Assembly: GCA_018067045.1 (NCBI GenBank)
Contig: JAGPVL010000012.1
Location: 1-64,000 of the forward strand
Direction: 5' to 3'
DNA from: Gammaproteobacteria bacterium
Lineage (GTDB): Bacteria; Pseudomonadota; Gammaproteobacteria; Pseudomonadales; Alcanivoracaceae
DNA: 64,000 bases
Numbering within the stretch: position 1 is the stretch's first letter; each line of letters begins with the position of its first letter. The notes under the pieces were generated by a model. That model was given only the letters and a program-made list of their open reading frames with translations. It did no database searches and had not been told where the DNA came from. Of the stretch, positions 58,316 to 64,000 are shown in pieces. Position numbers and translations under genes: made by a program.

Positions 58316-59464
58316 CTAGGCGATATTGTTCATTCGCTTAGTATTACGCAGCAGCTGATCCATCTCGCCTTGGTAGTAAGCTTCAACCCGCGGGTTCATG
58401 ACCTTTTTCCATAACGGTGGGAACAGTGCCAGCACATACATAGATGCATACCCGCCCGGCAGCTGAGGGCTCTCTTCATAATGGCGTAGTACTTGGAAGC
58501 GGCGCTTTGCGTAAGCGTGATGATCGCTATGACGCTGCAACTGAAACAGCGCCAAGTTCGTTAGCAGGTAATTTGAATTCCAGCTATGTGCTGGCGTCAC
58601 ACGCTCATACTTACCGTTTTCCAATGTACGACGGTGTAAGCCGTAGTGCTCAATGTAGTTAATAATTTCTAGCGCTAGGGCAGCAAAAAAACTTTGTCCG
58701 AGGAAAAATGCAGCGCCCTGCCAGCCCCACAATACGGAAAACGTCACGGCCAGCGCGGCAGAAATGCCGTACCACCAAAGTAATTCGTTATCGATGCTGA
58801 AAAAAGATTTTCCTTTGCGCGCCAAATATTCTTTTTCCAGGCGCCACGCGTTAGTGAAGTTGTGAACGAACGCGTGAGGTAAGAATGAGTATAACCCTTG
58901 GTTGTACTGCGACGATGAGGCGTCTTCAGGGGTAGATACGGTAACGTGATGGCCGCGCACGTGCTCTACTTTAAACCCGCCGTAACTCACCGACGCCAAC
59001 AGCAAGCCGCCCGCCCAGTTCTCAATGCGTGGATCTTTATGGATTAACTCGTGGCCAAGGTTGATAGCAATAATGCCACCGAGGGTGCCGATCGACAGAA
59101 TCCAACCGAACTGTCCAAGCAATGAATAATCGTTATGAACGAATATCCAGCCGCTCCAAAACAGGACGCCAAACCAAATAGGCACCATCGCCAGCGCTAA
59201 CCACCGGTAGGACTTGTCTTCGCTCATGGCCGGCACGTCTGTGAGCTCATCGGGATTGGTTGGGTCTTTGCCAATGATGTAATCAAGAATGGGAATAATG
59301 CCGAAGATAAAGATGTAGATAAAAAATGCCCAATAATCTTGGGTGCCAGACTCAACGCCGGTGAAGGCGGCTATTGGCAAGACAGGAAGAAGGACTAACC
59401 AGAAAGCGAGGTAACCCCACTTCTTCATTGTTAGCATTACCGATGGGCTAATATTGATGGCCAT
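58316..59464 (-). CDS. alkB: Alkane 1-monooxygenase AlkB
   Basis: This 382-residue membrane diiron enzyme hydroxylates the terminal carbon of n-alkanes with rubredoxin as electron donor. Six membrane helices carry the His boxes: HELIH (138-142), HVRGHH (168-173) and QRHSDHHA with H312, H315 and H316. The extra NYIEHYGLHR motif is typical of AlkB. The start at 59464 has GAGGTG upstream. No rubredoxin gene is beside it. It diverges from a GntR regulator, as alkB2 does in Alcanivorax. Confidence 0.95.
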   Translation of the reverse strand: MAINISPSVMLTMKKWGYLAFWLVLLPVLPIAAFTGVESGTQDYWAFFIYIFIFGIIPILDYIIGKDPTNPDELTDVPAMSEDKSYRWLALAMVPIWFGVLFWSGWIFVHNDYSLLGQFGWILSIGTLGGIIAINLGHELIHKDPRIENWAGGLLLASVSYGGFKVEHVRGHHVTVSTPEDASSSQYNQGLYSFLPHAFVHNFTNAWRLEKEYLARKGKSFFSIDNELLWWYGISAALAVTFSVLWGWQGAAFFLGQSFFAALALEIINYIEHYGLHRRTLENGKYERVTPAHSWNSNYLLTNLALFQLQRHSDHHAYAKRRFQVLRHYEESPQLPGGYASMYVLALFPPLWKKVMNPRVEAYYQGEMDQLLRNTKRMNNIA

Positions 59465-59712
59465 GGAGCACCTCATCTTTAAGTGGTTGTAGCAGCCTAT
59501 GCGCTGATTTAGCAGCGTGTGTTTGGCTGCTCGTTATACAAACAGTAACGCTGCCATTGGATGCTGTCAACATATGCATGAATAATTCAAGTGTTGGACA
59601 ATTGATGAATGCTTAGGCATAGTTCTCCTATATCGTCGCCCTTGGTTGAGAGGACGACGTGTTGCGGCGTTGCGATATTGGAATGCATGGAAAGGCATTG
59701 GGCGGGACAAGC

Positions 59713-60493: not shown

Positions 60494-61357
60494 ATGACGA
60501 CCCAACTTCAACTAGCAAGAGCCATTCCGCTGGCGGTTCCAGGCAATAATCTGGACGCCTACATTAGTGCGGTACACGGCGTCAGCATTCTATCTGCCGA
60601 AGACGAACGCGCTTTGGCAGAGCGTCTATTTTATGAAGACGACCTTGAGGCCGCTCGCGGCCTCGTTTTAGCGCACCTGCGTTTTGTCGTTCATATTGCG
60701 CGTAGCTATAGCGGCTATGGTTTGCCGCTGGCCGACCTGATTCAAGAAGGCAACGTCGGCTTGATGAAAGCGGTACGCCGTTTCGACCCCGAAGTGGGCG
60801 TGCGTCTGGTGTCATTTGCCGTGCATTGGATCAAAGCTGAGATCCACGAGTTTGTGATTAAAAACTGGCGCATCGTCAAAGTGGCGACCACCAAAGCGCA
60901 GCGAAAATTATTCTTTAACCTGCGCGGCCAAAAGAAACGCCTTGCTCGCCTGACCACCGAAGAAGCGCAGAATATTGCTGACGATCTTGGTGTGCAGTTA
61001 AAAGACGTACAAGAAATGGAAAGCCGTCTCGGCGCCTATGATGCCTCATTTGATGGCAGCACAGATGACGATGACGACCGCGCTGTCTCCTCGCCGGTGC
61101 AATACCTTGAAGCACCGGATCTTGATCCGGCCGAATTGGTTGAGCAAGAGCAATGGCAATCGCAGCATCAGTTGCGCATGGCCAATGCCCTGCAGACGCT
61201 AGACGAACGCAGCCGTTCGATCATTCAGCGCCGCTGGTTGCATGACGATAAAACCACGCTGCAAGATTTGGCCGACGAATACGGTGTGTCTGCTGAGCGT
61301 GTCCGCCAGTTAGAAAATAACGCGATGAAGAAATTGCGCTCGGCTATCGTGTTGTAA
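60494..61357 (+). CDS. rpoH: Heat-shock sigma factor RpoH (sigma-32)
   Basis: This 287-residue sigma-70-family protein has region 2 ([38 protein letters not shown]) and the RpoH box between regions 2 and 3 ([15 protein letters not shown]). Region 4 is [20 protein letters not shown]. It directs heat-shock transcription. The start ATG at 60494 follows AGGGGAGGGG. The gene is alone here, not behind ftsX as in enteric bacteria. A CIRCE operator lies upstream and a terminator downstream. Confidence 0.96.
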
Positions 61358-61387
61358 TTGCGGGTGTAAGCGTTTTGGTAGAGTTAT

Positions 61388-61424
61388 AAAAAGCGGCCAT
61401 GCTGAAAAGCATGGCCGCTTTTTA
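61388..61424 (+). terminator. Terminator after rpoH
   Basis: A perfect 12-bp stem AGCGGCCATGCT (61392-61403) / AGCATGGCCGCT (61408-61419) has a GAAA loop and T-run. Confidence 0.92.
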
Positions 61425-61506
61425 TTGGGCGTCAGAAATGAAGGCGGCAATCAGCACGACCGCCCTCCCCTCATAACGCTCCCCTGCTTTGAGTTGCTTG
61501 GTTAAA

Positions 61507-61806
61507 ACGACAAAAGTCCGGAGTTCAACGACAAAAATCCGGAGTTCAACGACAAATGACTTATATCCCCTTTTGCCGAAAAGCTAAAACGCCCAAGTGA
61601 TGCGCCCTGCGGGGCGTTTGTCGTGAAATGTCAACCGAAACAAAACCCAGATAAAAACACGAGATATACGACAGTTGTCGCAAAAGTCTGGATGATATTG
61701 TTTTGATGCTACGGATAAGGTGTTGTTAATAAAAGAGATTAGAGTGTTTGTTAATAATAGACTCTGGGGATATACGACAGCATGATATAAGTCATTTGTC
61801 GTTGAA
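61507..61806. repeat. Inverted-repeat element with tandem transposon-end-like repeats
   Basis: A perfect 23-bp inverted repeat (61545-61567 and 61784-61806; outer end TTCAACGACAAATGAC) bounds a 262-bp non-coding segment. To its left, two 21-bp direct units beginning ACGACAAAA and differing at one base (61507, 61528) run into the left arm. Inside, GATATACGACAG occurs twice (61663, 61769). ACGACA or its complement appears seven times in about 300 bases. This looks like a MITE or a collapsed transposon with multiple transposase sites. No coding sequence is inside. Confidence 0.65.
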
Positions 61807-61833
61807 TACGCTGTTAGCTTTTAGGGGAATCTG

Positions 61834-62235
61834 GTGGTTATAGACGATTTGCTAGATGACATAGTCCGCTCGGCTCAGCCTGATTATCGTTTAGTCCTAG
61901 CAACTAAAACTATTAAGGGGGCGCTCATTCAAGATGCTGGAGTCCAAGTGCGAGATGTCGGCTGCGTAGAGTTTGATGAGAGTGAAAGCATACTTAGATT
62001 TGTTCCCGGTTATATGTCCGGCGAGCAAGGGAATATCCAGGTAAAGACGGCTCAAGATCTGCGTAATGCGATCAAGAGCGCGAGCGTAAGTTATCAGTTG
62101 CTCGGCGTGGATCGTAGAAAAGAGCGTCCTGACGGCTCAATGGCAAGCCTTACGGTTCCTGTTGTGGGGACATACATCGATACAGAAGACAAAGAAATTT
62201 GGCTTCTGCAAGCGCCAATAGAGCAGTGGGAATAG
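61834..62235 (+). CDS. Cassette 1 protein, unknown function
   Basis: This 133-residue soluble protein with a GTG start is the only frame in cassette 1 (61814-62318). It begins VVIDDLLDDIVRSAQPDYRL and contains GCVEFDESESILRFVPGY and VPVVGTYIDTEDKEIWLLQA. I recognise no family. It ends 12 bases before the R'' box of its attC, a normal layout for cassette genes. Confidence 0.7.
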   Translation: MVIDDLLDDIVRSAQPDYRLVLATKTIKGALIQDAGVQVRDVGCVEFDESESILRFVPGYMSGEQGNIQVKTAQDLRNAIKSASVSYQLLGVDRRKERPDGSMASLTVPVVGTYIDTEDKEIWLLQAPIEQWE

Positions 62236-62246
62236 TGAGCCGTGAA

Positions 62247-62324
62247 AGCTAACAAGCGGCGGCAGGCGGATCAAGTTTTCACTCCTTCGTCGCTACAACT
62301 TGTCCGCTGCGCCGGTCGTTAAAT
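62247..62324 (+). repeat. attC site of cassette 1
   Basis: R'' is AGCTAAC (62247) and R' is GTTAAAT (62318). The arms GGCGGATCAAGTT and AACTTGTCCGC pair with one unpaired T, the extrahelical base typical of folded attC. Length is 78 bases. Confidence 0.88.
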
Positions 62325-62352
62325 GCCGTGGTAGATAGTTAGGCTCATTTAA

Positions 62353-62535
62353 ATGGAAAAGAAATATATTACCTTCACAATAGTAGTGGTGCTTTCATTG
62401 GTAATATATCTATTTATATCAGCATCAATAAAAAGTGATGCGTGCTTAGACTCAGGTGGAAGCTATAACTATGATGAATGTAAGTGCGACTTTGAAAATA
62501 ACCATGATTCTCAACCTATGAGCTTTTGCATCTGA
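62353..62535 (+). CDS. Cassette 2 small membrane-anchored protein
   Basis: This 60-residue protein has one N-terminal hydrophobic helix (ITFTIVVVLSLVIYLFISAS). A short Cys-rich exported part follows (DACLDSGGSYNYDECKCDFE) with four or five Cys. Similar tiny one-helix proteins are frequent in superintegron cassettes. It is followed two bases after its stop by a second gene in the same cassette. Confidence 0.65.
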   Translation: MEKKYITFTIVVVLSLVIYLFISASIKSDACLDSGGSYNYDECKCDFENNHDSQPMSFCI

Positions 62536-62537
62536 TT

Positions 62538-62864
62538 ATGATTATATTTGCATTCAGCACCGATGATAATGGCCTTGAAGTATTTCCTACAAAAGACGAA
62601 GCAATCAATTATTGCGAAGGCATCGATGTAGAAGAAGGTCTCTGGTTATTTTGGGATGAGTCAGGCGAAAATATGGAAGCTAAGTTCAGCGTCCCAAACA
62701 AAAAAGATGGCTCTTGGGTTCAATCTGGAGTTTATGATTTAGTTCCATTTCCAATAGGGTTGGAGCTAATTGAATTTATATCAAATGTTGGCTATGTCGA
62801 AGGGCGCGGTATTTTCAACACCGTTCAAGACATCAGGCTGCATTTAACAAGGGGCTGCATTTGA
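62538..62864 (+). CDS. Cassette 2 second protein, unknown function
   Basis: This 108-residue acidic protein (IIFAFSTDDNGLEVFPTKDE, EGLWLFWDESGENMEAKFSV) has the size and acidity of small immunity-like proteins, but I can assign no family. The ATG at 62538 follows the previous stop closely; a TTG at 62526 is an alternative. Its last seven codons run into the attC of the cassette. Confidence 0.65.
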   Translation: MIIFAFSTDDNGLEVFPTKDEAINYCEGIDVEEGLWLFWDESGENMEAKFSVPNKKDGSWVQSGVYDLVPFPIGLELIEFISNVGYVEGRGIFNTVQDIRLHLTRGCI

Positions 62865-62946
62865 CCTCCAGCCACTGTCACCTTTTGTGCATAAAACCCG
62901 CACAAAAGGCGCCAGTAGCTTCCGGCAAATGAGCCCGGCGTTAAGT
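62842..62946 (+). repeat. attC site of cassette 2
   Basis: R'' is ATTTAAC (62842) and R' is GTTAAGT (62940). GGGGCT and CATTTG pair with CAAATG and AGCCC. The variable loop holds a CTTTTGTGC / GCACAAAAG hairpin. Length is 105 bases. Confidence 0.88.
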
Positions 62947-62959
62947 GCCTGAGAAAACT

Positions 62960-63196
62960 ATGAAGCACGAATTATGGATGGATGAAGAAGAGTTGGGTAC
63001 GTTCTGTCTTGCTGGGAAGCATGGTGAAGATGCTCGAAAGTTGCTTGAGCCAAATTCAAAGTTAGTTTGGTCATGTGAAGCAGATTCCCATTTTGAGGCC
63101 ATGACAAAATACTATGAATATATGGATTGGGGGCAATACACTACCGATTACCCAGAACAAGATAAAAAAACCTACAAAGAACTAGGGTGGGAGTAA
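62960..63196 (+). CDS. Cassette 3 protein, unknown function
   Basis: This 78-residue acidic protein (KHELWMDEEELGTFCLAGKH, KLVWSCEADSHFEAMTKYYE) resembles small hypothetical proteins seen repeatedly in superintegron cassettes. The ATG at 62960 lies 19 bases inside the cassette. It stops 4 bases before its attC. Confidence 0.7.
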   Translation: MKHELWMDEEELGTFCLAGKHGEDARKLLEPNSKLVWSCEADSHFEAMTKYYEYMDWGQYTTDYPEQDKKTYKELGWE

Positions 63197-63200
63197 TGGC

Positions 63201-63290
63201 ACTTAACAAGTTTGTCAACGATCGCCCTTCGGGCTGGACCGCTAAAAGCGTGGCTTCGCCACAACGCGGCCCGTTACAAAGGCGTTAACG
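63201..63290 (+). repeat. attC site of cassette 3
   Basis: R'' is ACTTAAC (63201) and R' is GTTAACG (63284). Internal hairpins GCCC-TTC-GGGC and GTGGC-TTC-GCCAC lie in the variable part. Length is 90 bases. Confidence 0.86.
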
Positions 63291-63297
63291 GTCCACT

Positions 63298-63708
63298 ATG
63301 AGCGAATGCGTAAAACATAGAAAATCTCTGGATACTTGGGAAGCCTTTGAAAGGCTCATAGACGTCATTTGGCTTGGGTCAGGTGGTTTGCCTTGCGATA
63401 AAGATGGAAAGTACAAGAATGATGTTTTACACGTACAAACTTGTGAAAGTTGCAAAGCCTGGATTGAAGAAAAAGTACCGACCGAAATAAAAAAGAGAAC
63501 AGAAAGATTAAAAAAGTATTGCTGTCCTGTTATGTTTGGTGCTGTTGAAGAAAGTCGGGATGGTGAGTTAAATCTTAAATTAATGAATTTTCAGGGCGAT
63601 CCTGTATGGGCTGTGAGGAACTTTGACCATCTCGGCAGTAATTTACTTTTTAGTTACTGCCCATGGTGCGGTTCAAAATTACCGAATAAACCGTTTATAG
63701 AGACTTAA
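63298..63708 (+). CDS. Cassette 4 zinc-binding-like protein, unknown function
   Basis: This 136-residue protein has paired cysteines: TCESCKAW (about 49-52), KKYCCPVM, and a C-terminal zinc-ribbon-like YCPWCGSKLP. It probably binds zinc. No enzyme motif is recognised. It begins 14 bases inside the cassette and ends 8 bases before its attC. Confidence 0.7.
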   Translation: MSECVKHRKSLDTWEAFERLIDVIWLGSGGLPCDKDGKYKNDVLHVQTCESCKAWIEEKVPTEIKKRTERLKKYCCPVMFGAVEESRDGELNLKLMNFQGDPVWAVRNFDHLGSNLLFSYCPWCGSKLPNKPFIET

Positions 63709-63716
63709 ATGAAAAC

Positions 63717-63797
63717 CGTTAACAAGGCACGGCACAATCGCGCAACAAGTTGCGCTGGACTCGCACTGCGTGCTCGCCTGTGCGTGCGGCGTTATGC
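63717..63797 (+). repeat. attC site of cassette 4
   Basis: R'' is CGTTAAC (63717) and R' is GTTATGC (63791). An inner GCGCAAC-AA-GTTGCGC hairpin is perfect. Length is 81 bases. Confidence 0.86.
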
Positions 63798-63810
63798 ATC
63801 AGGAACAAAA

Positions 63811-64000
63811 ATGAGATTCTTTCCTATTTTTTTAATGGTTTTCTTGGTGGGCTGTGAAAGCACACCGCAAAAAGAAATTGCCTCAGAAGTAGCGGCGATA
63901 TGCCCCGAAATGCTCGGTGTCTGGTATACAGACGTTACGGTTCAGAATACCCAGGATGGAAAAAAAAGAGATATTGTTCAAATTAGCAGAAAGCCGGATG
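63811..64000 (+). CDS. Cassette 5 predicted lipoprotein, cut by the window end
   Basis: An ATG at 63811 opens a frame with a lipoprotein leader (RFFPIFLMVFLVGCESTPQK; Cys at residue 14), continuing to the window edge without a stop. The mature part (ICPEMLGVWYTDVTV) is unassigned. It lies 20 bases inside the fifth cassette. Confidence 0.6.
   Translation, partial: MRFFPIFLMVFLVGCESTPQKEIASEVAAICPEMLGVWYTDVTVQNTQDGKKRDIVQISRKPD

Follow-up and report, generated by a model that had tools for sequence, protein, structure and literature searches.

The cassette array that follows rpoH in the window (the whole analysed stretch of 64,000 nucleotides; positions 1–64000 of contig C15 of the genome of a marine, Alcanivorax-like member of the Alcanivoracaceae, 3.3 Mb in 44 contigs) is probably an orphan integron platform, the cassettes of which would be loaded and unloaded in trans by a distant IntI, as judged by sequence comparison. 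In the usual description an integron consists of a single integrase and a single attI beside it, and arrays that lack intI tend to be regarded as debris or as the outcome of off-target insertion. The attI platform described here recurs without intI, its ends are conserved, and different cassettes are found per species at the same site.

Cassette array and attI module beside rpoH

The left flank of the array is an rpoH-type sigma factor gene (60494–61357, + strand; Sigma70_r2 and Sigma70_r4) with its terminator hairpin (61386–61425, no strand; 18-nt perfect inverted repeat, then a T run). The junction between attI and cassette 1 was placed at 61813–61819 (R box GTTAGCT, crossover G^TT), where homology to other attI copies ends. 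The following elements were found to the right of it, all on the + strand: cassette 1 ORF, 61834–62235 (133 aa, no Pfam match); attC 1, 62248–62324; cassette 2 ORFs a, 62353–62535 (60 aa), and b, 62538–62864 (108 aa); attC 2, 62842–62946; cassette 3 ORF, 62960–63196 (78 aa); attC 3, 63201–63290, 71 bp of which are 84.5% identical to an attC of the array on contig C10; cassette 4 ORF, 63298–63708 (136 aa; weak DUF6980 match, below cut-off); attC 4, 63717–63797; and cassette 5 ORF, 63811–64000, which continues beyond the window (158 aa in the contig). A fatty acid desaturase-type gene (58316–59476), probably an AlkB-type alkane hydroxylase, is located near a GntR-type regulator and rpoH.

The four attC sites claimed in the original prediction were borne out. 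R'' is complementary to the start of its own cassette at each of them, and all four were recovered by a covariance model, of whose training set they were a part; this model replaced an earlier hand-made finder that had missed most sites. Compensatory changes were observed in the attC L stem: covariation score 0.489 vs 0.141 in shuffles and ≤0.10 in slid structures; 40 cells changed on both sides vs 16 in shuffles. The search for more attC sites proposed at that time gave a fifth at contig position 64291–64374 and a sixth, into which a transposase-like orfA cuts where the contig ends (position 65370). The cassette genes, described earlier as coding for unknown proteins, gave no Pfam family above cut-off; the Rfam search of the window gave no match, and the window's cassettes are not shared with other arrays.

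The DNA between terminator and first cassette had been taken for a non-coding repeat element, with attI missing. This part of the original prediction has to be corrected: positions 61539–61815 (+ strand) are an attI module comprising left end, core and crossover, 91.3, 89.5 and 89.9% identical to the modules of contigs C18, C25 and C43, respectively. Two tandem 21-bp repeats AACGACAAAARTCCGGAGTTC (61506–61547, + strand) lie at its left edge. The left arm of a perfect 23-bp inverted repeat (61545–61567, − strand), identical in all four genome copies, pairs with the right arm (61784–61806, + strand), which is part of the attI core. Whole-genome search gave four copies, on C15 (the window), C18, C25 and C43; the homology of the window copy to the others spans 61532/61533–61816 (284 bp at 90–91%). 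The four copies align ungapped over 277 nt (89.5–94.9% identity), and all end in ...GAATACRCT^GTTA, exactly where the first cassette of each array starts. On C18 and C25 the copy is situated between a full intI and a cassette, and the module is therefore the attI region. Variable sites are absent from the first 31 nt and from nt 213–271, and the middle holds 37 of the 38; none of the 38 falls within the 90 end positions (p ≈ 8e-8, the boundaries having been chosen after looking). On the left side, the C15 and C43 modules both lose homology at a distance of 280–281 nt from the crossover.

In the window genome, matches to the arm sequence at E 0.1 are confined to the eight arms of the four modules; no exact match to the arm was found in viral contigs, and the module was not found on plasmids. 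A promoter scan of the module gave no sigma-70-like site (Pc) at the scan threshold. Assignment of the repeat to a Tn7/Tn402-type transposon end was dropped after the attI homology emerged, and two SAR86 matches to the attI core pattern, with only the 20-mer in common, were discarded as chance. The C43 attI copy (L022, 1318–1603) resembles C18 in its left part and C25 in its right part, which suggests a mosaic that may have arisen by recombination or gene conversion between attI copies.

As stated in the original prediction, no integrase accompanies the array: neither the TIGR02249 profile nor tblastn gave a match within the array or in the DNA that separates it from rpoH. Left of the C15 and C43 modules only chance-level matches to intI or its promoter were obtained, and the LexA box is absent there, unlike in C18 and C25. 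Thus, the array has two parts of a complete integron, an attI with the R box at the first cassette and an attC array, and lacks the third, an adjacent intI; no remnant of intI or its promoter, by which a degraded integron would be recognized, was detected. With two or more attC sites and no integrase in its vicinity, it is a CALIN by the usual definition, the first of two readings offered earlier; for the second, an integron with a lost head, which is still conceivable, no intI remnant is detectable. The intI/attI pair directly upstream, named as what would speak against both, is present by half: attI is there, intI is not.

In a genome of the same genus (G001), the gene after rpoH is a convergent one of the FAH family, ca. 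76 bp separate the two stops, and there is no array; in G004 two ORFs and no array lie between these genes. In the window genome the FAH gene lies on contig C9. The DNA that comes after it resembles cassettes, comprising a VapBC-like pair and a sequence similar to attC in which the R' box is degenerate, and its orientation is the one expected for the far end of the window array; C15 and C9 would accordingly be joined, and the C9 cassettes would form that far end. Beyond the VapBC-like toxin–antitoxin pair of this FAH-side region (L102, 5640–6330), the end of the contig holds an IS1182-like transposase.

Integrons and intI-less platforms elsewhere

The search for intI in the rest of the genome, advised earlier, gave two full IntI genes, on C18 and C25 (333 aa; TIGR02249 417 and 412 bits, respectively, vs cut-off 265), with LexA-type boxes (CTG-N10-CAG) CTGTACATATGAGCAG and CTGCTCATATGATCAG between attI and intI. 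C18 (L007, 1–1491) and C25 (L008, 1–1512) are complete integron heads: a stretch of 1485 bp, reaching from the first cassette to the end of intI, is 87.5% identical between them, and homology is absent right after the intI end. The genome thus has two integrons of the same type. On C25, a near-perfect 56-bp palindrome (L008, 452–507) surrounds the LexA-type box that lies upstream of intI.

The second intI-less attI array of the genome, on C43, adjoins SCP2/glnK. In it, near-copies were found of C1 cassette DNA (94% over a length of 293 bp) and, at ca. 90%, of the cassette that comes first on C18 and C25. A seemingly non-coding cassette is repeated in C43 (L022, 1–1030) and occurs also in C18 (L007, 1–140), C25 (L008, 1–160) and C1 (L126, 987–1280). 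The C10 array adjoining pckA (L009, 4900–8700) has attC sites and no attI copy, and is a plain CALIN; a 621-aa ORF with a P-loop-like motif was noted in it.

Related attI ends were found in other Alcanivoracaceae: in G020 (intI split over contig ends), in G014, where an intI N-terminus of ca. 75 codons is kept as a remnant beside attI, and, without intI, in G024, G045 and G009. In Alloalcanivorax balearicus (L095/L024) an attI copy without the left end is bordered by GGGGTCAGGTCTTGC-type repeats, several of which lie around the locus.

A second family, f20 (G340, G357), probably Marinobacteraceae, carries this attI type in 34 of 163 genomes (55 sites). Nine of the sites adjoin a full intI (333–367 bp), 3 an intI fragment, and 43 have none within 1.5 kb; these proportions may be biased, since the probe was partly built from an intI-less site. 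Direct reading of 29 loci with ca. 1.5 kb of left flank gave 3 with intI, 1 with a remnant and 25 with none; attC was found at 12 of the 29, all 15 hits having the side and strand of the cassettes. Single-contig assemblies (G340, G488, G489, G512) account for four of the intI-less sites; G512 also encodes an IntI of the matching lineage, with an attI of its own, ca. 1.76 Mb away from the orphan site. IntI at least 64% identical to that of C18 accompanies this attI type; IntI at ca. 62% identity mostly accompanies an attI variant ending GCGTTCGTATAATTAGCTGTTA. Full-length IntI is absent from 11 of the 32 f20 genomes with orphan sites, and several others have only IntI of another lineage.

The left end of the module, approximately CGGAGATnnACGACAAnTGTCGC, repeats the attI core in inverted orientation; when pairs of intI-less modules were aligned over 200–600 bp, 34 of 49 stopped 255–295 nt left of the crossover. 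An intI fragment is kept at L147, and L151 has no intI and a LexA-like box at the position typical of intI-bearing loci; from these two, G014 and three more fragments it is evident that decayed integrons are among the orphan sites. L151 alone has, in its left flank, an isochorismatase-like ORF that separates the conserved neighbour gene from the module; the leftover LexA-like box is next to it.

Proposed service in trans and rival explanations

Four orthologous sets of intI-less sites were found in f20 (L136/L138/L148, L150/L154, L144/L158 and L152/L157). Their left flanks are conserved (best identity 86–95%), and the sequences right of GTT are unrelated, save for attC-sized matches; this is the turnover expected of a platform served in trans. 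In L136/L138/L148 and L150/L154 the intI-less state is common to the species and the cassettes differ, so that the simplest account is exchange of cassettes after intI was absent in cis. These differences and the near-copies in C43 favour a distant IntI as the agent of loading; the former could also stem from homologous recombination or transfer, and the window's own cassettes could have entered before loss of intI. The f20 genomes that have orphan sites but no full-length IntI, or only IntI of another lineage, and the orphan sites that are decayed integrons also count against it. According to the proposed scheme, a discrete attI module of ca. 277 bp without intI would serve as the docking site for cassettes; IntI from C18 or C25 would insert and remove cassettes at the window module in trans; and the LexA boxes of these two intI genes would place this recombination under SOS control.

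Deletion of intI and its promoter from a complete integron at rpoH, with the array as an inactive leftover, would account for the intermediate stages seen in relatives (the intI N-terminus of G014, the L147 fragment, the L151 box) and for the 3 of 55 f20 sites that adjoin intI fragments. It is nevertheless an unlikely origin for the window array: no remnant of intI or promoter was found to the left of the window or C43 modules, both of these end at the same point, ca. 280 bp from the crossover, and most intI-less modules elsewhere end within 255–295 bp (the 34 of 49 pairs above); moreover, the module ends are conserved in the intI-less copies, and cassettes turn over at orthologous intI-less sites. 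These common ends would be explained if the module moved in a MITE-like manner, by a transposase or by IntI, and seeded arrays, an explanation compatible with a platform served in trans. The module is multi-copy (up to 4 per genome), the perfect arms in the window are the inverted ends expected of a MITE, the left end is common to unrelated contexts, and it corresponds to the attI core in inverted form. On the other hand, a target duplication is unreadable because cassettes start at the right end, the copies are 5–10% diverged, so that no recent move is seen, and the orthologous sites are old; intI-bearing integrons share the inverted ends, and the repeat may therefore serve protein binding, not transposition. 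Movement of this kind is considered possible, if rather doubtful.

Insertion of cassettes by a distant IntI at an attG-like GTT site, with the repeat unrelated, has a parallel in the one attI-less array of the window genome, on C10 beside pckA, but a full attI copy adjoins the window junction, as described above, which makes this course most improbable. Hardly credible is an assembly artefact, in which intI was dropped or the contigs were misjoined at the repeat: the assembly is a 44-contig draft and its arrays break at contig ends, but the window contig is unbroken through rpoH, attI and five attC, the expected right-hand neighbour, the FAH contig C9, also has cassette-like DNA in the same orientation, and the same layout occurs in the four single-contig assemblies.

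The orphan platform served in trans is thus preferred for the window. Its extension to a distributed integron in marine Alcanivoracaceae and the second family, with one integrase and several dispersed attI platforms spreading as inverted-end units of ca. 275 bp, by which each cell would possess a number of independent places for cassettes to dock, is offered tentatively, as something that may well be so without being probable.

Relation to known systems

CALINs have been explained by insertion at off-target sites, by loss of intI or by rearrangement (PMC8618304), and a functional IntI is said to be able to mobilise them in trans (PMC12444791). IntegronFinder leaves attI outside class 1 undetected (PMC9024848), and orphan-attI arrays would therefore be hidden among CALINs. 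A literature search (Alcanivorax and Marinobacter integrons; orphan, solo or multiple attI) gave no description of dispersed attI platforms, the search being incomplete and weak evidence of absence; as far as searched, orphan attI platforms are a large undescribed class. If IntI serves them in trans, cassettes can dock at several sites in one genome, and many of the CALINs catalogued so far may be live platforms; attI sequences are gained for lineages without annotated attI.

IntegronFinder would call the window array a CALIN (Cury et al.), i.e., an attC array without a nearby integrase; unlike an ordinary CALIN, it keeps a conserved attI platform. The CALINs of Xanthomonas at conserved loci are likewise intI-less arrays away from the resident integron and conserved across species, according to the accessible part of PMC12444791, which makes no mention of an attI copy at those loci. 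The window attI, crossover and attC match those of the genome's own complete integrons, i.e., of the sedentary chromosomal type, but the array has neither intI nor a LexA-controlled intI promoter in cis. With off-target (attG) CALINs it would share a distant IntI acting away from intI; its docking site, in contrast to theirs, is a true attI copy and not a secondary site of the GTT type.
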